Source: Methyloversatilis sp. RAC08
GTDB taxonomy: Bacteria > Pseudomonadota > Gammaproteobacteria > Burkholderiales > Rhodocyclaceae
Length of the DNA stretch: 64,000 nucleotides
Reading direction: 5' to 3'
Assembly: GCF_001713355.1 (NCBI RefSeq)
Contig: NZ_CP016448.1
Coordinates: 2,604,001 to 2,668,000 of the forward strand
The translations under genes were made by a program, and so were the position numbers. Of this stretch, positions 1 to 48,684 are shown piece after piece. The notes beneath the pieces are model-generated. The model was not told the DNA's origin, did not search any database, and saw only the letters and a list, made by a program, of their open reading frames with translations. The first letter of the stretch is position 1, and the number at the start of each line of letters is the position of its first letter.

Positions 1-1145
1 AGCACCAGCAGACGTTCGCGGTCGAGCGCCGGCGTCTCTGCGCCATCGGGGGTATCGGCGCGGTCCTGCGCGCACACATAGACGGTCGGCGCGTCGACGA
101 TGCTGCGCCGCTGGAACACCGCAGCGAATTCGTCCGGGTAGTTTTCGGCGAAGAACACATTGTGGTGGTGCAGCGGAAAGCCTCGCGTGCGGCCATGAAC
201 GCACCAGGTGATGGCCGACAGCGAGCGTTCCGCCGGTTTGATGACCGGTGCGGCCGGCCGCACGGACGGCCCGAGCAGGCCGGTGGCCAGCGCCGACACG
301 TCGCCGTTGAACACCACGCGTTCGCAGTCGATGACTTCGCCACCGGCCAGCCGGACGCCAGCGACCCGACCGCCGCGCACGACGATCTCCTCCACCTGGC
401 AGTCGAAGCGGAAGCGGGCGCCGTGCCGCTCGGCCAGCGCCTGCAGCGCGTCGGCGACGCGGCGCATGCCACCTTCGACGATCCACACGCCGTCCTGTTC
501 GACGTGCGCGATCAGCATCAGCGTGGCCGGCGCGCGCAGCGGCGACGAACCGACATAGGTGGCGTAGCGGCCGAACAGCTGGCGCAGGCGCGGATCGCGG
601 AAGTACTCGCCGAGCGCGCTCCACAGCGTGCTCAGCGGCTGGGTGCGCCACAGCGCGCCGAGGTTGGCGAAACCGACGCGCTGCGTGAGCTCGATCGCCG
701 ACGGCCGCTGACCATCGATGAAGGGGCCGCGCAGGGTCTGGTAGATCTCGCGGCTGCGCGCGCAGAAGGCGCGGTAGCCGGCGGCGTCGTGCGCGCCGGC
801 GAAGTCGCCGATCGCCTCGACGCTGCGTTCGATGTCGGCAAACAGGTCGAGCCGGCCGCCTTCGCGCCAGGCGTGGCGCGCAAGTACCGAGGTGGTGTGC
901 AGGGTGAGTGCGTCGGTCAGCGAGGCGCCGGCGTCGGCGAACAGGGATTCGAAGGCCCAGCGCATCGTGAATACGGTCGGGCCGCCGTCGATGGCAGCGC
1001 TGCCCACCTTCACCTCGCGCATCTTGCCGCCGGGCGCAGGGGCGCGTTCGAGCAGCTGCACGTCGATACCGCGACGCGCCAGATCGACCGCGGCCGACAG
1101 TCCGCCCATGCCGGCGCCGATGACCACCACCCGTTCAGACGCCAC
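1..1145 (-). CDS. crtD: Methoxyneurosporene dehydrogenase CrtD, 3' end outside window
   Basis: FAD-dependent carotenoid desaturase acting on 1-hydroxy/1-methoxy carotenoids, introducing the 3,4 double bond in the spheroidene branch. The GTG start at 1145 is followed at once by the Rossmann dinucleotide motif (VVVIGAGMGGLSAA), then GPTVFTMRW and ARHAW, which I recognise as CrtD-like rather than CrtI-like. The frame stays open to position 1, so the C-terminal part lies outside the window. It starts 9 bp after the stop of the membrane protein gene at 1155-1904, so the two are probably one transcript. CrtI versus CrtD is a family judgement; the nearby crtC and crtF support CrtD. Confidence 0.85.
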   Translation of the reverse strand, partial: MASERVVVIGAGMGGLSAAVDLARRGIDVQLLERAPAPGGKMREVKVGSAAIDGGPTVFTMRWAFESLFADAGASLTDALTLHTTSVLARHAWREGGRLDLFADIERSVEAIGDFAGAHDAAGYRAFCARSREIYQTLRGPFIDGQRPSAIELTQRVGFANLGALWRTQPLSTLWSALGEYFRDPRLRQLFGRYATYVGSSPLRAPATLMLIAHVEQDGVWIVEGGMRRVADALQALAERHGARFRFDCQVEEIVVRGGRVAGVRLAGGEVIDCERVVFNGDVSALATGLLGPSVRPAAPVIKPAERSLSAITWCVHGRTRGFPLHHHNVFFAENYPDEFAAVFQRRSIVDAPTVYVCAQDRADTPDGAETPALDRERLLV

Positions 1146-1154
1146 GCCCGCCCT

Positions 1155-1904
1155 TCACGCGCGTTGCCCGGCCGGCAGCGCGGCACGCGGGCGCGCCAGC
1201 TTGCGCCACTGATACAGGATGATGGCCAGCCCTACAGTCAGCGGAATTGCCCACAGCACCGGATGCAGCGCCAGCGTCGGGAAGGTGCGCACCGCGCCGA
1301 AGGCAAAGAAGGCCGTGTAGACCGAAATGCCGGCGCCGACCAGCGCCTTGATGTGTTCGCGCAGCCAGTCATTGGCCGCCGGCTGGCGCTTGTACAGGAA
1401 CCACAGATTGGTGCCGACCGTCGCCCAGCCGATCAGTGACACGCCGAGCATCAAGGGCTGACCGATCAGCAGACCCTGCACGGCGCAGTTCGTGGCGGTG
1501 ATGAAGGTTGCGGCCTGCAGGCCGAGATTCACCGATTCCCGGTTGGCCGTGTGGTCGCGCCGGTTGCGGATGCACTGCCAGCCGTACCAGGCCAGGTTCA
1601 GCGTCAATGTGGCCAGTGCCAGCATCATCCAGCCGAAGATCGCCCGCACCAGTGCCGGGTCGCGGAAATCGGCGTGTTCGGTCAGGTGCGGGTGGGTCGA
1701 CACCGGGTCGGCCAGCGTGCACAGGCTGATGCCGATCGCCGCCGTGCCGGTCAGCAGCATGGTCACCGTGAACACCTTGCCGACAGTGCGATGCGCGGTG
1801 CCGCCCTTCTTCGCGAATACCGGCACCCAGAACGCGAGCAGGCCGGTAGCGCCGGTCACGATGTGACTGGCGACGAAGAGGTGGAACAGCTCGGACACGG
1901 ACAT
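1155..1904 (-). CDS. DUF2306-like polytopic membrane protein upstream of crtD
   Basis: Predicted 249-residue inner-membrane protein with about seven hydrophobic segments. An N-terminal pattern HIVTGATGLLAFWVP followed by HRTVGKVF resembles the DUF2306 family of predicted membrane proteins, whose function is unknown. I chose the ATG at 1904 (MSVSELF) over an upstream in-frame codon at 1931. It is transcribed away from the P450 gene and is followed after 9 bp by crtD, so it probably shares crtD regulation. Nothing in the sequence assigns a role; the conserved histidines in the first loop could bind a cofactor, but that is speculation. Confidence 0.75.
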   Translation of the reverse strand: MSVSELFHLFVASHIVTGATGLLAFWVPVFAKKGGTAHRTVGKVFTVTMLLTGTAAIGISLCTLADPVSTHPHLTEHADFRDPALVRAIFGWMMLALATLTLNLAWYGWQCIRNRRDHTANRESVNLGLQAATFITATNCAVQGLLIGQPLMLGVSLIGWATVGTNLWFLYKRQPAANDWLREHIKALVGAGISVYTAFFAFGAVRTFPTLALHPVLWAIPLTVGLAIILYQWRKLARPRAALPAGQRA

Positions 1905-1993
1905 TGTTGCGCGCTCGACAGGCCTTGCCAAAGGTGAGGGGCGGGATCCACATGTCGACTCAGGCGGGTGCTTGAGACATTGACACTTCGCAC

Positions 1994-2011
1994 TGTAACC
2001 TCAGGCGGACA
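1994..2011. promoter_or_regulatory. Putative PpsR/CrtJ operator in P450/crtD divergent region
   Basis: TGTAACCTCAGGCGGACA matches TGT-N12-ACA, the consensus bound by PpsR/CrtJ. It sits between the divergent genes starting at 1904 (minus) and 2170 (plus). The inner bases are less symmetric than at the bchI or crtB sites, so this is a weaker call. No convincing -35/-10 pair was seen around it. Confidence 0.45.
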
Positions 2012-2169: not shown

Positions 2170-3582
2170 GTGACAGCTTTTCCTGCGGGCATCGATGCCC
2201 GCCCGACCTACATTCCGCCACGGCCGCAGGCGCTGTCGCCCATCATTTCGCTGTTCCGGCTGATCGCGCAGGGCGATGGCGACCTGCTGAGCCTGCTGCC
2301 CGCCGACGCCTACCGCGTGCCGGTCGGCCACCTGGGCTATTCGCGGCGGCAGATACTGATCGTCAATGATCCGCAGCTCTACCGCAACATCCTGACCGAT
2401 CCGACCGACATCTATCCGAAGAACGACCTGATGGTGGGCGCGCTGGAACCGCTGGTCGGCAACTCGATCTTCGTGTCGTCCGGCGACACCTGGCGCAAGC
2501 AGCGCCGCATGATCGATCCCGCCTTTTCGCACATGCGTCTCGGTCAGGCCTTTCCGTCGATGGCGGCCGGCGTCGATGCGTATGAAGACAAGCTGCGCGA
2601 GCATGCGCTGACCGGCGAAGCCTTTTCGCTCGATCTGGCGATGAGTCACCTGACGGCCGACATCATCTGCCGCACAGTGTTTTCGACCTCGTTCGACACC
2701 CGGGCGTCGCGCGAGGTGTTCGACGCCTTCACGCTGTTCGAGCGCAGCGTGGCCCAGGTCGAGTGGAAGCGGCTCATTTTCGATCCGGCGTGGCAGCGCG
2801 TCGATCAGCGCCCGGACGTCGAAGCGGCCTGTCACATCATCCGCGAGCGGCTGGGCGAGCTGGTCGATACCCATCTGACCGGTCCGATCACGCGCTGGAA
2901 CGACATCGCCGCCGAAATGGTGAATGCCGAAGATCCGGAAACCGGCTACCGATTCGACCGCAAGGAGCTGATCGACCAGCTGGGCGTGATGTTCCTCGCC
3001 GGCCACGAAACGACGGCCAGCGTGCTCACCTGGGTGTTCTTCATCCTGAGTTCGCAGCACGACACGGTGGCGCGCATGCGCGCCGAGGTCGATGCCGTGG
3101 TGGGCGAAGGCGACATCGGCTTCGAGCACATCCGCCGGCTCACCTTCACGCGCAACGTGTTCCGCGAAACCATGCGGCTGTACCCGCCGATCACTTTCAT
3201 TCCGCGCGTCGCGGCCGAGGCGACGCAGATCGGCAAATACCGGGTGAAGCGGGGCGCGATGATCATGATTTCGCCGTGGACCATCCACCGCAACGAGAAT
3301 TACTGGCGCAACGCCCACCATTTCGATCCCGACCGTTTCAGCACCGAACGCGAGCACGAACTGGTGCCCGGCGCCTATCTGCCATTCGGGCTCGGACCGC
3401 GCGTGTGCGTCGGCGCCGCCTTCGCGACCACCGAAGCGACGCTGATCCTGGCGCGCCTGGTACGCCGTTTCGATTTCAGCGCGCTCGACGCCGATGCGGT
3501 GCGACCGGTGGCGCGCCTGACGACGCGGCCGAAGCACCAGATCATGTGCCGCGTGCGTCTGCGCGAGCGGGCCGGCACATGA
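2170..3582 (+). CDS. Cytochrome P450 embedded in the photosynthesis cluster
   Basis: 470-residue soluble cytochrome P450 monooxygenase if started at the GTG at 2170; the open frame extends to 2023, but the upstream part is low-complexity and unlike the family. Visible family features: I-helix AGHETT at residues 277-282, K-helix ExxR (E333, R336) and the heme loop FGLGPRVCVG with the axial cysteine at 413. There is no N-terminal membrane anchor. Its stop overlaps the start of the ATP-grasp gene (ATGA), so the two are translationally coupled. A TGT-N12-ACA site lies about 160 bp upstream. I know of no P450 in the standard photosynthesis gene set. Carotenoid, tetrapyrrole or lipid substrates are all possible; none can be chosen from sequence. 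A redox partner gene is not adjacent. Confidence 0.9.
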   Translation: MTAFPAGIDARPTYIPPRPQALSPIISLFRLIAQGDGDLLSLLPADAYRVPVGHLGYSRRQILIVNDPQLYRNILTDPTDIYPKNDLMVGALEPLVGNSIFVSSGDTWRKQRRMIDPAFSHMRLGQAFPSMAAGVDAYEDKLREHALTGEAFSLDLAMSHLTADIICRTVFSTSFDTRASREVFDAFTLFERSVAQVEWKRLIFDPAWQRVDQRPDVEAACHIIRERLGELVDTHLTGPITRWNDIAAEMVNAEDPETGYRFDRKELIDQLGVMFLAGHETTASVLTWVFFILSSQHDTVARMRAEVDAVVGEGDIGFEHIRRLTFTRNVFRETMRLYPPITFIPRVAAEATQIGKYRVKRGAMIMISPWTIHRNENYWRNAHHFDPDRFSTEREHELVPGAYLPFGLGPRVCVGAAFATTEATLILARLVRRFDFSALDADAVRPVARLTTRPKHQIMCRVRLRERAGT

Positions 3583-4847
3583 AACCGGTCGTGCTGATCA
3601 CGCTCGGCCGCCTGCCCAAGGGGCTGGATCTGGCGCGCAGCTTTCACCGGCTCGGTTGGCGCGTCATCGTGGCCGAACCTTTCAGGTGGCATCTGAGCGC
3701 GATGTCGAATGCGGTGGCGCGGCGCTACACGGTGAGCGCGCCGGCGCTCGGCCGCGAACGCTATCTGGACGAGTTGCGCGACATCGTGCTGAAGGAAGGC
3801 GTCGACCTCGTGGTGCCGGTGTCGGAAGAAATCATGCACGCCAGCCATCTGGCCGGTCGGCTGCCGGTCGGTGTGCAGCTGTATGCGATGCCGCCCGAGG
3901 TGCTGATGCCGCTGCACGACAAGCTGCAGTTCATCGGCCGCTGCCGCGATTACGGTGTGGCCGCGCCGGCCACCTGTGCGCTGGGCACACCGGGCGCTGT
4001 CGACCTGGCCGAGGCGGGCGACCACATCGTGAAGCCGGTCTATTCCTGCTCCGGTCGGGGCGTGCTGTTCCGCCGGCAGGGCGAGGCGCTGCCCGAGGTC
4101 GCGCCTGGCCAGCCCGCCATCGTGCAGCGCTGGGTCAAGGGCAATGTGCTGAGCACCTTTTCGATCGCTGCCGCCGGCCAGCCGCTGGTGACCGTGGTGT
4201 ATCGCGGCGCGGTCATGTCGGGCACCGTGTCCGTGTGTTTCGAGCGTGTCACCGAAGCCGACCCGCAGCACCGGCCGGTCATCGACTGGGTCAGCCGGTT
4301 CATCGCCGCAGCGGGCTTCACCGGCTTCATTTCCTTTGACCTGGTGGTGGATGCCGACGGCCAGGCGCACGGCATCGAGTGCAATCCGCGCGCCACCAGC
4401 GGCCTGCATTTCGTCGATCCGGACGACCTGGCGCGCGCCGTGGTGGCGCCGGACGGGGTGTTGGCAGGGACGCAGCCGGTTCGTTTCCGCCGGCAGCTGC
4501 TGATGCAGCAGTTCTACCCCTGCCTGACCGAAGTGCAGAAGTCGATGTTCAGCCCGAAGGCCTTCGGGCCGGACTTCAGGCGCAACCTTTCGCGCTTCCT
4601 GCGCGCGCGCGACGTGACCTGGCGCTGGCGCGATCCGCTGCCCTTCATCACGATGCCGCTGACCGCGTCGCAGATCATCTGGCTGTCGATCCGCAGCGGT
4701 GCGACCTTCGGCGAAGTCGCCACGCTCGACGTCGGGCTGTATGCGCCGGACGAGACGACGGCGACATCCGGAACCCTGCCGGACACGACCGAAGGGACCG
4801 CCCCGGGATCCTCATCCGGCCCCGCTTCGCCTTCCGCAGTGTCCTGA
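3579..4847 (+). CDS. ATP-grasp ligase-like protein coupled to P450
   Basis: 422-residue protein with an ATP-grasp fold like carboxylate-amine ligases and carbamoyl-phosphate synthase domains. Seen: an N-terminal pre-ATP-grasp region (VVLITLGRLPKGLDLAR), a DKLQF segment near residue 110, the nucleotide-binding HIVKPVYSCSGRGV stretch near 150, and the metal-binding ECNPR at 267-271. The C-terminal 130 residues are unlike a standard ATP-grasp domain and end in a Ser/Thr/Pro-rich tail. The start overlaps the P450 stop by 4 bp. Family knowledge predicts an acyl-phosphate intermediate and formation of an amide, ester or thioester bond. Substrate unknown. bchI follows 107 bp later with its own PpsR-type site. 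Confidence 0.85.
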   Translation: MKPVVLITLGRLPKGLDLARSFHRLGWRVIVAEPFRWHLSAMSNAVARRYTVSAPALGRERYLDELRDIVLKEGVDLVVPVSEEIMHASHLAGRLPVGVQLYAMPPEVLMPLHDKLQFIGRCRDYGVAAPATCALGTPGAVDLAEAGDHIVKPVYSCSGRGVLFRRQGEALPEVAPGQPAIVQRWVKGNVLSTFSIAAAGQPLVTVVYRGAVMSGTVSVCFERVTEADPQHRPVIDWVSRFIAAAGFTGFISFDLVVDADGQAHGIECNPRATSGLHFVDPDDLARAVVAPDGVLAGTQPVRFRRQLLMQQFYPCLTEVQKSMFSPKAFGPDFRRNLSRFLRARDVTWRWRDPLPFITMPLTASQIIWLSIRSGATFGEVATLDVGLYAPDETTATSGTLPDTTEGTAPGSSSGPASPSAVS

Positions 4848-4868: not shown

Positions 4869-4886
4869 TGTCACTCTAAAGTGACA
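4869..4886. promoter_or_regulatory. PpsR/CrtJ operator upstream of bchI
   Basis: TGTCACTCTAAAGTGACA is a nearly perfect dyad matching TGT-N12-ACA with TGTCAC/GTGACA arms. It lies 68 bp before the bchI start and just after the ATP-grasp stop. This indicates that bchID have their own repressible promoter rather than depending only on the P450 transcript. Confidence 0.75.
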
Positions 4887-39275: not shown

Positions 39276-39360
39276 ATTGGTTTGACGAGGTGAACGATTG
39301 GGATCGGAGCAGGAGCGCAGTGAGTTTTCCAGAATCGACGGGAAGTGGGGGGCTGCCAAC

Positions 39361-40785
39361 GTGAAGCCGTTCGAATCGCCCCTTCTTTCTTTCGGAGGCG
39401 TCGATGCCAACTCCACAGCAAGACTCATCGCCGCCGCGTCGGATCTGGCGCTGGTGGTGGACAAGCAGGGCATCATCCGCGATGTAGCCTTCGGCAACGA
39501 CGAACTGGTGCCCGATGGGTACGAGGGCTGGGTCGGCCGACGCTGGACCGACATCGTGACGGTCGAAAGTCGCGCCAAGGTCGAGGCGCTGCTGATCGAC
39601 GCTTCGGCCGAGGCAGCCCAGAAGTGGCGGCACGTGAATCACCCTGTGTCCGGCGGCATCGACATGCCGGTGCTGTATTCGGCCATCAAGGTCGGCCACG
39701 AAGGCCGGGTTGTCGCGTTCGGCCGCGACCTGCGGTCCCTGTCGTCACTGCAGCAGCGGCTGGTCGATGCGCAACAGTCGATCGAGCGTGACTACGCCAA
39801 GCTGCGGCAACTGGAAACCCGCTATCGCCTGCTGTTCCAGATGACCTCGGAAGCGGTGCTGATCGTCGAGGCCGGCAGTCAGCGCGTCATGGAAGCCAAT
39901 CCGGCAGCGCTCAGGCTGCTCGGTCCGTCTCCGAAGGCGCTTGTCGGTCGCACCTTCCCGGAAGGTTTCGACGAAGCAGGCATGCAGTCGGTACAGGATC
40001 TTCTGGCCAGTGTGCGCGCGGCCGGTCGCGCTGACGACGTTCGCGTGCGGCTCGCGGACGACGGGCGCGAGCTGCAGGTTGCCGCATCGCTGGTCAGGCA
40101 GGACAACGCTGCGCTTTTTCTCGTGCGCCTGTCGCAACGTGCCGTCGAACACACGACCTCAGGCCTTCATCAGGCCCTGCTGGACGTGATGGAGCACGTC
40201 CCGGATGGCTTTGTACTGACGGACGAATCGGGCCGCATCCTGACCGCCAACCACGCCTTTCTCGATCTGTCCCAGCTGGCTTCGGTCGAGCAGGCGCGTG
40301 GCGAGCCGCTCGAACGCTGGCTGGGTCGCCCCGGCGTGGACTTCAAGGTATTGATGGTCAACCTGCGCCAGCACGGCTCGGTCAGGCTTTTTTCCACCCT
40401 GGTTCGCGGCGAACATGGTTCGGATGTGGAAGTCGAGATTTCTGCCGTGTCGGTCCCGCATGGCGAAACGCCCTGTCTTGGCTTCACGGTGCGTGGCATC
40501 AGCAGGCGGATCGAGGCCGATCCGCGCCTGGGTCGCGAACTGCCCAGGTCGGTCGAACAGCTGACCGGACTGGTCGGCCGTGTATCGCTGAAGGAGCTGG
40601 TGCGCGAATCGACCGACCTTATCGAGAAGCTGTGCATCGAGGCGGCGCTCGAACTGACGCACGACAACCGCGCATCGGCGGCTGAAATGCTCGGCCTGAG
40701 CCGGCAAAGTCTGTACGTGAAACTGCGCCGCTACAGCATCGGCGATCTCAACGCCGAGCACGAAGACATCGAAACGGAAGATTAG
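39361..40785 (+). CDS. ppsR: Photosynthesis repressor PpsR/CrtJ
   Basis: Redox-responsive repressor of bch, crt and puf genes. About 474 residues from the GTG at 39361 (VKPFESPLLSFGG). A TTG at 39298 with a good GAGGTGA site would add 21 residues, so the start is unsettled. Domains: N-terminal PAS, Q-linker (LQQRLVDAQQSIERDY), PAS1, PAS2, and a C-terminal FIS-type helix-turn-helix (NRASAAEMLGLSRQSLYVKLRR). Presumed to bind the TGT-N12-ACA sites listed here. It follows aerR/ppaA in the same direction. Confidence 0.94.
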   Translation: MKPFESPLLSFGGVDANSTARLIAAASDLALVVDKQGIIRDVAFGNDELVPDGYEGWVGRRWTDIVTVESRAKVEALLIDASAEAAQKWRHVNHPVSGGIDMPVLYSAIKVGHEGRVVAFGRDLRSLSSLQQRLVDAQQSIERDYAKLRQLETRYRLLFQMTSEAVLIVEAGSQRVMEANPAALRLLGPSPKALVGRTFPEGFDEAGMQSVQDLLASVRAAGRADDVRVRLADDGRELQVAASLVRQDNAALFLVRLSQRAVEHTTSGLHQALLDVMEHVPDGFVLTDESGRILTANHAFLDLSQLASVEQARGEPLERWLGRPGVDFKVLMVNLRQHGSVRLFSTLVRGEHGSDVEVEISAVSVPHGETPCLGFTVRGISRRIEADPRLGRELPRSVEQLTGLVGRVSLKELVRESTDLIEKLCIEAALELTHDNRASAAEMLGLSRQSLYVKLRRYSIGDLNAEHEDIETED

Positions 40786-44954: not shown

Positions 44955-45269
44955 CCGGATCAATATCGATGTTTTCGATCGTTCATACACTCTGACATGT
45001 ATTTTTTGATGAGTTACCGTAGCATACGAGGATGTGGTTTGACGAAGTAAGGGGCACCGTCTTGTCGGACATGACATCAGGCCGCCGGGCAGGCTGCGCA
45101 ATGGCGCGCGCCGCATGCGGAAAACGCTGATGCAGTGTGCGGGTGTTTCTGTGCAGACTTCTGCAACCCGTCGATGTGACATGCCGTGCCCCCCGGTAGG
45201 CGCCGGGTTTTGCAATTCAAGCAGGTTCGCACGCTGTGCTTTGCGACTGCGTTCATCCGGTTCTGTACT
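44955..45269. other. Non-coding region before the PpsR-like gene
   Basis: 315 bp, its first 100 bp more AT-rich than surroundings. I see no gene, no clear TGT-N12-ACA palindrome and no convincing promoter or terminator. Confidence 0.4.
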
Positions 45270-46460
45270 ATGAACAAGCTACCGAACGACCCGGGCGATC
45301 TGAGCGCATTCTCGGAGGTCGCCCCCGAACTGGCCGACATGCTGGTGTCGGTCACCAGTGACATCGCGCTCGTACTCGACGACAAGGGTTTCATCCGCAG
45401 CGTGGCGCTGGGCGGTGCGGAACCTGTCAGCGCGACCGCCAGCGAGTGGCTGGGCCGTCAGCTGGTGGATACAGTGACGCGCGACACCCGTCGCAAGGTC
45501 GAGGAATTGTTGCGCGAAGCCAATGTGGCCGGCGTGTCGCGCACGCGGCACATCAATCATCCTTCCGCTGCCGGTGCCGACATTCCGGTTGCCTACACGG
45601 CAGTGCGGCTCGGCCAGTCCGGCCCGCTGCTGGTCGCCGGGCGTGACCTGCGCGCGGTATCGGTCATGCAGCAACGCCTGGTCGACGCGCAGCAGTCGAT
45701 GGAACGCGACTACTGGCGCATGCGCCAGGCGGAAACCCGCTATCGCCTGCTGTTCCAGATCGCAACCGACGCGGTCCTGATCATCGACGCCGACACCTTG
45801 CACGTGATCGACGCCAACCGCGCTGCGGCGCGCATGTTCGGATGCTCGGTGTAGGACATGCCGGGACGTCAGGCCACCGACGGGGTCGCGCCGGCGTCGC
45901 TCGGCGCGCTGGAAGAACTGCTCGGCACGGTACGCGTGTCGGGTCGCCCGGGCGAAGCCCATGTCACCCTTTCGGGACTTGGTGGCGCCATCCATGTATG
46001 GGTATCGCCGTTGCGTGGCGAAGGACAGAGCCTGCTACTGCTGCGTGCCACGCCCGATGGCAGTTCGCCGCTGACCGCACCCGACGACCCGTTGCTGCCG
46101 GAACTGATGCGCCTCACCCCGGACGCCATCGTGTTCACGAACGAACAGGGCATGTTGCTGAGCATGAACGCTGCGTTCGCCGAGCTGGTCAAGATTTCGG
46201 CTGACAGGGGTGTGCAGGGTCGTTCGCTCGGCGACTGGCTGGAACGCGACGGCGGTGGGTTCACGAATCTTCTCGCCAGCGTATGCCGCTCAGGCGTAAA
46301 ACGCATGGGTGCGCGCCTGTGGGACGAGAAGGGCATGTCCACGGATATTGAACTGTCGGCCGTCTTGATCCATAACGGAGATTCGAACAGTATCGGTTTC
46401 ATCATTCGCGCGGTGCAGCCGCGTGGCCCGGGTGCGCCGCACGCGGGCAGCGTGCACTGA
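45270..46460 (+). pseudogene. HTH-less PpsR paralogue split by in-frame TAG
   Basis: One continuous frame from the ATG at 45270 to the stop at 46460, interrupted only by TAG at 45852-45854 (codon 195). It aligns by eye along its length with the PpsR at 39361: N-terminal PAS (SDIALVLDDKGFIRSVAL), Q-linker (MQQRLVDAQQSMERDYWRMR), PAS1 (TRYRLLFQIATDAVLI) where the TAG falls, then PAS2 (LTPDAIVFTNEQGMLLSMNAAF). It ends at GFIIRAVQ, exactly where the HTH domain should follow. Either a pseudogene or, if the TAG is read through, suppressed or a sequencing error, a natural PpsR without DNA binding. Translation stopping at TAG would give 194 residues (PAS plus Q-linker). bphP starts 32 bp downstream. 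Confidence 0.85.
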
Positions 46461-46491
46461 ACACCGCCCAGCCCGCGGTGGCGGGAGATCA

Positions 46492-48684
46492 GTGTTGAAC
46501 GATCCGACATTCAGCCCGGCTTTCGGTCAGGCTGACCTGACCAATTGCGAACGCGAGCTCATCCACCTGGCCGGATCGATCCAGCCGCACGGTGTGCTGC
46601 TGGTCGTCCGCCGTGCGGATGGCCTGATTGTCCAGGCGAGCGACAACGTTGCCCGCTGGCTGGGCGTGGCCCACGATCAGCTGCTCGGCCGCACGCTCGA
46701 TGCGCTGGGCGGCTCGCTTGCCCGGCGTGTCACCGAACTGGCGGACACGCTCGTTGCGGATGAACTGACCGCCTTTCACTGCGATATCGGTGGCACGGAT
46801 TCGACTGCCGGGAGCGTGTTCGAGGGCATGGCACACCTCGGTCAGTCGGACACGGTAATCGTCGAACTGGAATCCGCCGAATCCGGTACCGAATCGATCG
46901 ACCAGGAAGCGCAGACTCTGCTCGCGTCGTCGGTGCGGCGCTTCAGCGAGGCGCTCAGCATCGCCGCGTTGTCCGATGCCGTTGTTCAGTCGGTCCGCGA
47001 CCTGACCGGGTACGACCGCGTGATGGTGTATCGCTTCGACGACGAGGGCCACGGCGAAATCGTCGCCGAGGCGCGTGAGGCGAAGCTTGATTCCCTGCTC
47101 GGCCACCGCTATCCGGCTACCGACATCCCTCAGCGGGCGCGCGAGCTCTATGTTCGCAACAGGGTGCGTGTGCTCGTCGATGCCAGCTACAAGCCGGCGG
47201 CCATACTGCCGCGCTGCCTGCCGGAAACCGGCGAAGAGCTCGACATGTCGAGTTGCCATCTGCGCAGCATGTCGCCGCTGCACATCCAGTATCTGCAGAA
47301 CATGGGCGTGACCGCCACCCTCGTGGTGTCGCTCGTGCGCGAGGGCAAGCTGTGGGGGCTGATCGCCTGTCATCACTACTCGCCGCGGCACATCCGCTAT
47401 GCGCAGCGTGCGGCGGTCGACCTGCTGGCCGAAGTGGTGTCCACCCGGATTGCCGCGATCGAGAACTACGTGCGCACCCAGGTCGATGTAATGGTGCGCA
47501 GCCTCGAACTGCGCCTGATCGAAGCCACCTCGACCGAAGGCGACTGGCGCCTTGCGCTGGTGCGCAACCCGCGCACCTTGCTGCAACCGCTCGATGCGAG
47601 TGGGGCCGCACTGTTCCATGAAGGTGAATTGCTGACTGTGGGCGACGTGCCGTCGACCGCCGAATTGCGTGCGCTGGCGCGCTGGGTTGCCGGCGAAATG
47701 CAACAGTCGCTGTTCAGCTGCGCGTCGGTCGCCCGCGTGCATCCGCCGCTGGCATGCCTGGCACCCGTGGTATGCGGTGTGCTTGCGATCGAACTGTCGT
47801 CGTCCGGCCAGGACTTCCTGATGTGGTTCCGGCGTGAACAGTCGGCCACGATCATCTGGGCGGGCGATCCCGCAAAACCCTTCGTCGACAACGATCCGCT
47901 CACGCTGTCGCCCCGGCGCTCCTTTGCCGCCTGGTCGGAAATCGTGCGCGGTACAGCGGCCTCGTGGAGCCGCGCCGATCTTGCACTTGCGCGTGCCATC
48001 GGTACGACGCTGCGCGACGTCATCCTGCAGACACAGGCCGTGAGCCTGTTGATCGCGCAGCACCAGCTCGATCGCTTCCGCGGTGCCGTAGAGACGTCGG
48101 ACGAGCCGGTTCTGGTGGCGAATGCGCAGGGGCGCGTGCTGTTCCAGAGTGTGGCCTTCGCTGCGCTGTTCAATACCTCGCCGCCTCGCGTACGCGCACT
48201 CGACGACATGTGCGACCTGTTCGTCGTACCGGCCCAGGTGCGCGAAGTGATCGGCAACCTCATTCGCGAGCGCGACTCCTGGCGCGGCGAATGGCGACTG
48301 CGCGCCGGCGCGGGCCAGACCGTGGCGCTCGGGGTCAGGGCGGACACGATTCCCGGCGCCGGTGGATCGGTGCTGGGCTACATCATCATCTTCACCGACC
48401 TGACCGACACCAAGCGCACGGAAGCCGCGCGGCGGCATCTCGAACAGTCGCTCAGTGAAGCCGGACGTGCCGGCATCGGCCTTGATCCGGCGATGCCGCT
48501 GCGGCGTGAGCCCGATGAGGTGGTGGGCGCCATTCTGGCCAATGCGAGTGTCGCTGCCATGGAGCTGACCGACACCGCCGCTTCGATGCCGGTGGCGACG
48601 CTCATCGAGGAACTGGAAGCCTCTGCGACGCGCGCCGCCGCGCTGTACGGCAAGTTGCGCGCCTTCACGCGCGAGCACGGATAG
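46492..48684 (+). CDS. bphP: Bacteriophytochrome without histidine kinase
   Basis: Biliverdin-binding red/far-red photoreceptor, 730 residues from the GTG at 46492 (GGGAG upstream). Chromophore cysteine C19 in LTNCERELIH. PAS (about 20-120), GAF (about 140-310) with YPATDIPQRARELY and SSCHLRSMSPLHIQYLQNMGV, PHY (about 320-520) with the tongue motif SPRRSFAAWSE, then a PAS domain (about 540-650) and a short helical C terminus. No H-box or HATPase domain. The same layout occurs in Bradyrhizobium and Rhodopseudomonas BphP proteins that antagonise PpsR by direct binding, so a similar role is inferred here. Follows the PpsR-like gene and converges with the heme oxygenase. Confidence 0.93.
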   Translation: MLNDPTFSPAFGQADLTNCERELIHLAGSIQPHGVLLVVRRADGLIVQASDNVARWLGVAHDQLLGRTLDALGGSLARRVTELADTLVADELTAFHCDIGGTDSTAGSVFEGMAHLGQSDTVIVELESAESGTESIDQEAQTLLASSVRRFSEALSIAALSDAVVQSVRDLTGYDRVMVYRFDDEGHGEIVAEAREAKLDSLLGHRYPATDIPQRARELYVRNRVRVLVDASYKPAAILPRCLPETGEELDMSSCHLRSMSPLHIQYLQNMGVTATLVVSLVREGKLWGLIACHHYSPRHIRYAQRAAVDLLAEVVSTRIAAIENYVRTQVDVMVRSLELRLIEATSTEGDWRLALVRNPRTLLQPLDASGAALFHEGELLTVGDVPSTAELRALARWVAGEMQQSLFSCASVARVHPPLACLAPVVCGVLAIELSSSGQDFLMWFRREQSATIIWAGDPAKPFVDNDPLTLSPRRSFAAWSEIVRGTAASWSRADLALARAIGTTLRDVILQTQAVSLLIAQHQLDRFRGAVETSDEPVLVANAQGRVLFQSVAFAALFNTSPPRVRALDDMCDLFVVPAQVREVIGNLIRERDSWRGEWRLRAGAGQTVALGVRADTIPGAGGSVLGYIIIFTDLTDTKRTEAARRHLEQSLSEAGRAGIGLDPAMPLRREPDEVVGAILANASVAAMELTDTAASMPVATLIEELEASATRAAALYGKLRAFTREHG

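Follow-up and report, generated by a model that had tools for sequence, protein, structure and literature searches.

A conserved crtD-linked module of membrane protein, cytochrome P450 and ATP-grasp protein with a probable role in carotenoid tailoring in aerobic anoxygenic phototrophs

The plant cytochromes P450 CYP97A3 and CYP97C1 act on cyclic carotenoids, and in phototrophs the spheroidene monooxygenase CrtA carries out an O2-dependent change of the product of CrtC and CrtD. Clusters of the staphyloxanthin type oxidize and then conjugate an acyclic carotenoid. We describe here a gene module for which we propose the same succession of oxidation and conjugation, but with other enzymes: the staphyloxanthin-type clusters contain neither a P450 nor an ATP-grasp protein, and CrtA is not a P450 and has neither a linked ligase nor the membrane protein reported below. 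The module lies in a stretch of 64,000 nucleotides (the window) from Methyloversatilis sp. RAC08 (contig NZ_CP016448.1, positions 2,604,001 to 2,668,000), whose genome is a single contig of 3.94 Mb. A preliminary description of the window had picked out an overlapping pair of P450 and ATP-grasp genes. The true unit is crtD, a membrane-protein gene, the P450 gene and usually the ATP-grasp gene, rather than the pair alone. Each part is of a known kind, whereas no earlier account of the module or of its presumed product was recognized in the open-access literature covered. The relevant features, in window positions, are the following.

1..1145, minus strand: crtD, 1-hydroxycarotenoid 3,4-desaturase, its C-terminal end outside the window (NF045637, 685 bits against a cut-off of 580 for the full gene, L041:9640-11145)
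1155..1931, minus strand: module membrane protein, 249-258 amino acids (aa), 6-7 helices predicted from hydropathy, located between crtD and the P450 gene and divergent from the latter
1994..2011: PpsR/CrtJ-type box TGTN12ACA in the divergent promoter of the membrane-protein and P450 genes, aligned and kept in 4/4 Methyloversatilis carriers
2170..3582, plus strand: cytochrome P450, GTG start, 470 aa (Pfam p450, PF00067, 244.7 bits against a cut-off of 22.8, 2.2e-72)
2998..3015, plus strand: I-helix motif AGHETT of the P450, residues 277-282, AGHET invariant in 16/16 aligned P450s
3166..3177, plus strand: ExxR motif of the P450, E333-R336, both residues invariant in 16/16
3385..3414, plus strand: heme-cysteine loop FGLGPRVCVG of the P450, residues 406-415, Cys413 invariant in 16/16
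3579..4847, plus strand: ATP-grasp ligase-like protein, ATG start, 422 aa (ATP-grasp_3, 37 bits against a cut-off of 23.2)
4377..4391, plus strand: ECNPR motif of the ATP-grasp protein, residues 267-271, invariant in 15 aligned members
4869..4886: PpsR-type palindrome between the ATP-grasp gene and bchI
39298..40785, plus strand: PpsR, the presumed regulator (TIGR02040, 521.6 bits against 275.4)

The preliminary description had reported that the P450 retains its AGHETT, ExxR and cysteine-loop motifs and that an ATP-grasp protein with ECNPR overlaps it by 4 bp. Both genes and all of these motifs could be located, and the shared bases are 3579-3582 (ATGA). The pair does lie between crtD and bchI, as had been stated, but the membrane-protein gene intervenes between crtD and the P450 gene. 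The pair's membership of the photosynthesis cluster is marked by this position, by the boxes at 1994 and 4869 and by the presence of PpsR in the window. Neither protein matches any bch or crt model, in agreement with the earlier view that they fall outside the known set of bacteriochlorophyll and carotenoid enzymes.

The P450 is a member of PF00067 with the heme cysteine loop, ExxR and the I-helix acid/threonine motif all present, and it has no predicted membrane helices. Lysine-proline residues in ATP-grasp proteins bind ATP and those of ExNPR bind magnesium; K152, P153, E267, N269 and R271 are invariant in 15/15 aligned members. The P450 and the ATP-grasp protein are 98% and 97% identical, respectively, to their counterparts in the Methyloversatilis genome G012. 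In pairwise comparisons of four Methyloversatilis genomes, the ratio of non-synonymous to synonymous substitution (dN/dS) is 0.056-0.089 in the P450 gene and 0.11-0.20 in the ATP-grasp gene, and it is therefore very likely that both genes yield functional proteins. Judged from its motifs, the P450 would be an O2-dependent monooxygenase that works with a redox partner, and the ATP-grasp protein is predicted to ligate a carboxylate to an amine (or thiol).

In a phylogenetic tree, the 13 P450s supplied from blocks of this kind (that of the window and 12 others) form one clade with support of 100/99, separate from three other P450s; further block P450s that were read were left out of the tree, and the P450 of L144 (424 aa, with an early frame end) was excluded from the alignment. 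Outside the module clade is the P450 of G037, which is 41% identical and whose genome has PufLM on another contig; the P450 of G057, a genome without PufLM, is 32% identical. The best match of the module P450 among solved structures is CYP97A3 (200.6 bits, a 47-bit lead over the next other P450 at 153.5), with CYP97C1 among the next. This match is local, covering residues 55-447, and the crt genes beside the module P450 point to an acyclic carotenoid, unlike the substrates of the plant enzymes. The similarity to CYP97 is suggestive only. We rejected it as proof of substrate after examining two control P450s: CYP97A3 was not the first match of one from Paracoccus, but it was also first (175.6 bits against 175.0 for the runner-up among other P450s) for one from a polysaccharide locus on a Polaromonas plasmid, so the match is non-specific.

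The best NCBIfam model for the ATP-grasp protein, PRK06849, is named hypothetical protein, and the score of 231.5 bits is below the curated equivalog cut-off of 406. By sequence profile the nearest solved structures are 2pn1 (only 5.9e-10), carbamoyl-phosphate synthase and an L-amino acid ligase (30vh); PRK06849/ATP-grasp_3, 2pn1 and 30vh have in common with the module protein the ATP-grasp signature with ECNPR. A profile search of the PDB with the ATP-grasp alignment gave no match at an E value of 0.01. Relatives that are 27-34% identical occur in plasmid clusters of Roseateles, Paraburkholderia and Rhizobium (L036, L037 and L040) together with KASIII-like, NAD(P)-dependent oxidoreductase and MBL-fold genes; CoF/F390-synthetase-like and GNAT genes are annotated in 2/3 of these clusters and Rieske genes in 2/3, a combination that would represent an unassigned pathway. 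We considered assigning a function from these neighbours and rejected it, because the clusters are different and the identity is too low for transfer.

Thirteen aligned block members of the membrane protein are 47-63% identical to that of the window, and His14, His38 and His184 (numbered from the Met at 1904) are invariant. Similarity to DUF2306 is weak (20.5 bits, under the Pfam cut-off of 31.6), is confined to approximately the first 60 residues and reaches an E value of 0.1 or better in 8/16 members. No match was found in the PDB with a profile of the alignment (E 1) or among 72,556 plasmids (E 0.01). Distant relatives that are 25-30% identical (L106 and L107, the two weak matches whose surroundings were read) adjoin two-component histidine kinase and response-regulator genes rather than crt genes, in genomes without PufLM.

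The order of the block recurs in distant lineages. The genes for CrtD, the membrane protein, the P450 and the ATP-grasp protein are adjacent in Methyloversatilis, in UKL13-2 (L057), in a metagenome-assembled genome (MAG) of the UKL13-2 genus labelled Nitrosomonadaceae (L077, which corresponds in coordinates to G435 and in which the contig end truncates the ATP-grasp gene), in HTCC2080 (L080) and in a Luminiphilus MAG (L078); a second Luminiphilus contig (L079) stops after the ATP-grasp and P450 genes. In G558, a gammaproteobacterium of another family, the three genes ATP-grasp, P450 and membrane protein are placed between crtD-crtC-crtB and crtI. Across 12 Halieaceae regions the P450 gene adjoins the membrane-protein gene in 12/12 and crtD is present in 11/12, and the ATP-grasp gene is adjoining or two genes off in 10/12 (two genes from the P450 in L141). 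It was not found in the fetched stretches of the other two (G902 and G869), and the coupling of oxygenase to ligase proposed in the preliminary description is thus not strict. In these two genomes the second gene after the P450 gene belongs to the fatty-acid-hydroxylase/sterol-desaturase family (L145 6757-7644 and L147 6380-7267; the Pfam assignment was made on the L145 copy only). The pair is codirectional and touching, nearly touching or overlapping in the betaproteobacterial members read, whereas it is convergent in the 15 gammaproteobacterial blocks read that have both genes, with two intervening genes in one. At L144 5860-5944 (G905) the P450 frame stops early and the convergent ATP-grasp frame crosses its end, so that either the genome itself or its assembly has a frameshift. 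In all, the module was seen in five families, and the ATP-grasp gene in members of all five. CrtD was assigned by model in the window, L080 and L140, by alignment in L057, L105, L143-L146, L149 and L150, and by eye in L077, L078, L141, L147, L148 and L151; crt labels in G558, in UKL13-2 beyond crtD, and in G001 and G002 were likewise given by eye, except that CrtD of G001 was aligned.

The module is also associated with the reaction-centre genes pufLM. The preliminary description had suggested scoring the pair for co-occurrence with puf and bch genes, and the pair does recur with photosynthesis genes in distant lineages, with the module-type ATP-grasp gene found only in PufLM genomes (4/61 relatives and 4/399 genomes of the order). 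The four matches in the order (E 1e-25) comprise the genome containing the window and three genomes from the genus of UKL13-2, all three of which have PufLM and a P450 gene adjoining the ATP-grasp gene. Within Methyloversatilis (P450 at E 1e-60, ATP-grasp at E 1e-20), PufLM occurs in 9/13 genomes, and the pair occurs in 4/9 of these, the window's own included, and in 0/4 of the others.

For wider sampling, in which Alphaproteobacteria were hardly covered, the membrane protein served as a stand-in for the module. A contig scan with two short peptide patterns had given 11 loci, and the membrane-protein search showed many more carriers. In a class sample of 369 genomes (1e-6) there were nine matches: the three strong ones (<1e-100) all accompany PufLM, and the six weaker ones occur without it. 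Seven genomes of this sample have PufLM, four of them without the membrane protein. In the HTCC2080 family, 58/140 genomes match at 1e-20. After dropping the weak matches G821 and G943 and retaining G880, which is cut at a contig end, 47 genomes have both the membrane protein and PufLM, 9 the protein only, 6 PufLM only and 78 neither (Fisher 2e-21), that is, the protein is present in 47/53 genomes with reaction-centre genes against 9/87 without; including the two weak matches gives 47, 11, 6 and 76. The protein-only nine include drafts that may be incomplete, as in G809 (the MAG of L078) and G819, which have bchI beside or near the block but in which PufLM was not found. Because 5/9 PufLM-bearing Methyloversatilis lack the pair and 4/7 PufLM genomes of the class sample lack the membrane protein, the module is not a general part of the photosynthetic apparatus.

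The block adjoins crtD in almost every case that was read, and an indication of the substrate comes from crtD having left the photosynthesis cluster. In G823 the coordinates place the block, including crtD, 2.56 Mb away from puf within a contig of 4.35 Mb, or 1.8 Mb away by the shorter route should the contig be circular. The module thus tracks crtD rather than the bch genes, which favours a carotenoid over a tetrapyrrole, quinone or lipid, all four of which had been offered in the preliminary description, and leads us to set a tetrapyrrole role aside. A large surface-protein-like gene lies on the crtD side of the G823 block. The block and puf are 126 kb apart in G822 and on different contigs in G824, and crtD of Congregibacter litoralis KT71 is likewise reported to lie outside the cluster (PMC3176799), in agreement with the G823 layout.

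Module-free Methyloversatilis show that the module is not required for the core pathway. The genes crtC, D, E and F are all found in G002, and crtC, D and E in G001 (the stretch ends before crtF), yet neither genome contains the P450 or the ATP-grasp gene. The module therefore supplements the spirilloxanthin pathway rather than being required wherever crtCDEF occurs. In these two genomes the crt genes stand in another order, and CrtD of G001 is only 55% identical to that of the window. Photosynthesis clusters of two or more types therefore exist within Methyloversatilis: in one, crtD and the genes for the membrane protein, the P450 and the ATP-grasp protein precede bchI; in a second, crtI lies between bchD and crtB, and crtD adjoins crtC (L045 and L048). 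The low CrtD identity suggests replacement or horizontal transfer.

Intact motifs, purifying selection, conserved gene content, the link to crtD and the association with reaction-centre genes are what we observe. We propose that in aerobic anoxygenic phototrophs the block probably serves to tailor carotenoids, as an extension of spirilloxanthin-type synthesis, with oxidation by the P450 and ligation by the ATP-grasp protein. The CrtE/B/I/C/D/F set would supply the spirilloxanthin-type carotenoid. The P450, with O2, would then oxidize the end group prepared by CrtC and CrtD, most likely at C-2 or a geminal methyl, perhaps aided by the membrane protein, which might donate electrons, bind the carotenoid or act as an enzyme within the membrane. 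The ATP-grasp protein would activate a carboxylate as an acyl phosphate and join it to a second small molecule, so that the carotenoid becomes more polar or is anchored. Aerobic anoxygenic phototrophy is described for both HTCC2080 and UKL13-2 (PMC3176799 and PMC5248499), a way of life that an O2-dependent P450 fits. A fuller version is possible but considerably more tentative: that these phototrophs, among them the majority of those in the marine HTCC2080 family whose genomes bear reaction-centre genes, produce a conjugated carotenoid whose acid or alcohol end comes from the P450 and membrane protein and to which the ATP-grasp protein adds an amino acid or other small molecule.

The module genes would be expressed together with the photosynthetic apparatus under PpsR. 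The motif TGTN12ACA, the PpsR/CrtJ consensus, has 19 occurrences in the window, where 7.9 would be expected. L077 has a box in the same interval as Methyloversatilis, provided that its membrane protein starts near 1786, and a box lies just upstream of the ATP-grasp gene in HTCC2080, two Luminiphilus MAGs, G558, L142 and L148. A second PpsR-like protein is encoded in two consecutive frames at 45186-46460 on the plus strand, which cover positions 1-169 and 176-365 of the 442 in the model and lack the DNA-binding end; these frames adjoin a bacteriophytochrome gene at 46423-48684.

Several observations weigh against the proposal. No PpsR-type box is present between the membrane-protein and P450 genes of UKL13-2, and 10/12 Halieaceae regions have none either in this interval or just upstream of the ATP-grasp gene. 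The Methyloversatilis counts of 4/9 and 0/4 are too small to discriminate, and the Fisher and matrix P values are inflated because genomes share descent. In the HTCC2080 family, six genomes with PufLM gave no match to the membrane protein (G874, G883, G911, G919, G947 and G948). In a Granulosicoccaceae MAG (L076) no crt genes accompany the three new genes, and puf is on another contig; in G851 (3.2 Mb) the three genes have no adjoining crtD and PufLM was not found, making it a real candidate for a carrier without photosynthesis. The first-ranked CYP97A3 match of a control P450 counts on the same side, as does the fact that we infer, rather than observe, the substrate and product, the position modified, the ligation partner, the role of the membrane protein and the regulation. 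A review states that proof of expression of the Methyloversatilis photosynthesis cluster is lacking (PMC12654162). The available part of the account of Luminiphilus syltensis and its relatives describes spirilloxanthin absorption and no extra pigment (PMC3679898). Similarly, the carotenoid of C. litoralis KT71 is given as spirilloxanthin, and its authors did not regard a second pigment, polar and yellow-orange, as a carotenoid (PMC2654016). Any modification made by carriers among these organisms must therefore spare the chromophore or be minor.

It is also conceivable, if doubtful, that the P450 replaces CrtA as an O2-dependent 2-ketolase or hydroxylase with the ATP-grasp protein as a bystander, since crtA is reported to be absent from the NOR5 clade (PMC3176799). 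The two Halieaceae blocks in which no ATP-grasp gene was found point the same way. However, the gene is present in the other ten and in members of all five families, ECNPR is invariant where aligned, and ATP-grasp distances track those of the P450 (distance-matrix correlation r 0.87, compared with 0.75 for P450 and membrane protein, 0.72 for P450 and crtD, and 0.49 for membrane protein and crtD). Moreover, a conjugated 2-keto carotenoid product should shift the spectrum. No such shift is reported for Luminiphilus in the part of that study available (PMC3679898). It is unlikely, to a somewhat greater degree, that the module tailors another component of the apparatus (quinone, lipid or bacteriochlorophyll tail) and adjoins crtD through inherited gene order. 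In line with this, the P450, membrane-protein and ATP-grasp genes occur without an adjoining crtD in the Granulosicoccaceae MAG and in G851, and the plasmid relatives of the ATP-grasp protein belong to clusters of an unrelated kind, which contain KASIII-like, CoF-synthetase and Rieske genes. Yet crtD departs from the photosynthesis cluster together with the block in G823, and the order around crtD differs in G558, and such differing arrangements make a shared function likelier than inheritance of order. That the cluster simply carries the P450 and ATP-grasp genes along, without a pigment role for them, as their absence from 5/9 PufLM-bearing Methyloversatilis might suggest, is very improbable given the strong purifying selection on both, the recurrence of the same module in five families and the PpsR-type boxes in some of them.

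The suggestion of an undescribed pathway agrees with the open-access literature, as far as its available parts go, in which we found no described pathway and recognized no account of a P450 or ATP-grasp protein in carotenoid synthesis of these phototrophs; subscription papers were outside this scope. In the parts of this literature seen, their carotenoids were identified by absorption spectra or high-performance liquid chromatography with diode-array detection, methods that end-group conjugates can escape. A conserved three-gene module linked to crtD predicts an unrecognized pigment, and Methyloversatilis offers a natural comparison of carriers and non-carriers in one genus. If the proposal is true, functions would follow for a clade of P450s and for an ATP-grasp family and a membrane protein that both lack names, and its fuller version would add a carotenoid-conjugating ATP-grasp enzyme whose product has been overlooked because the spirilloxanthin spectrum is unchanged.

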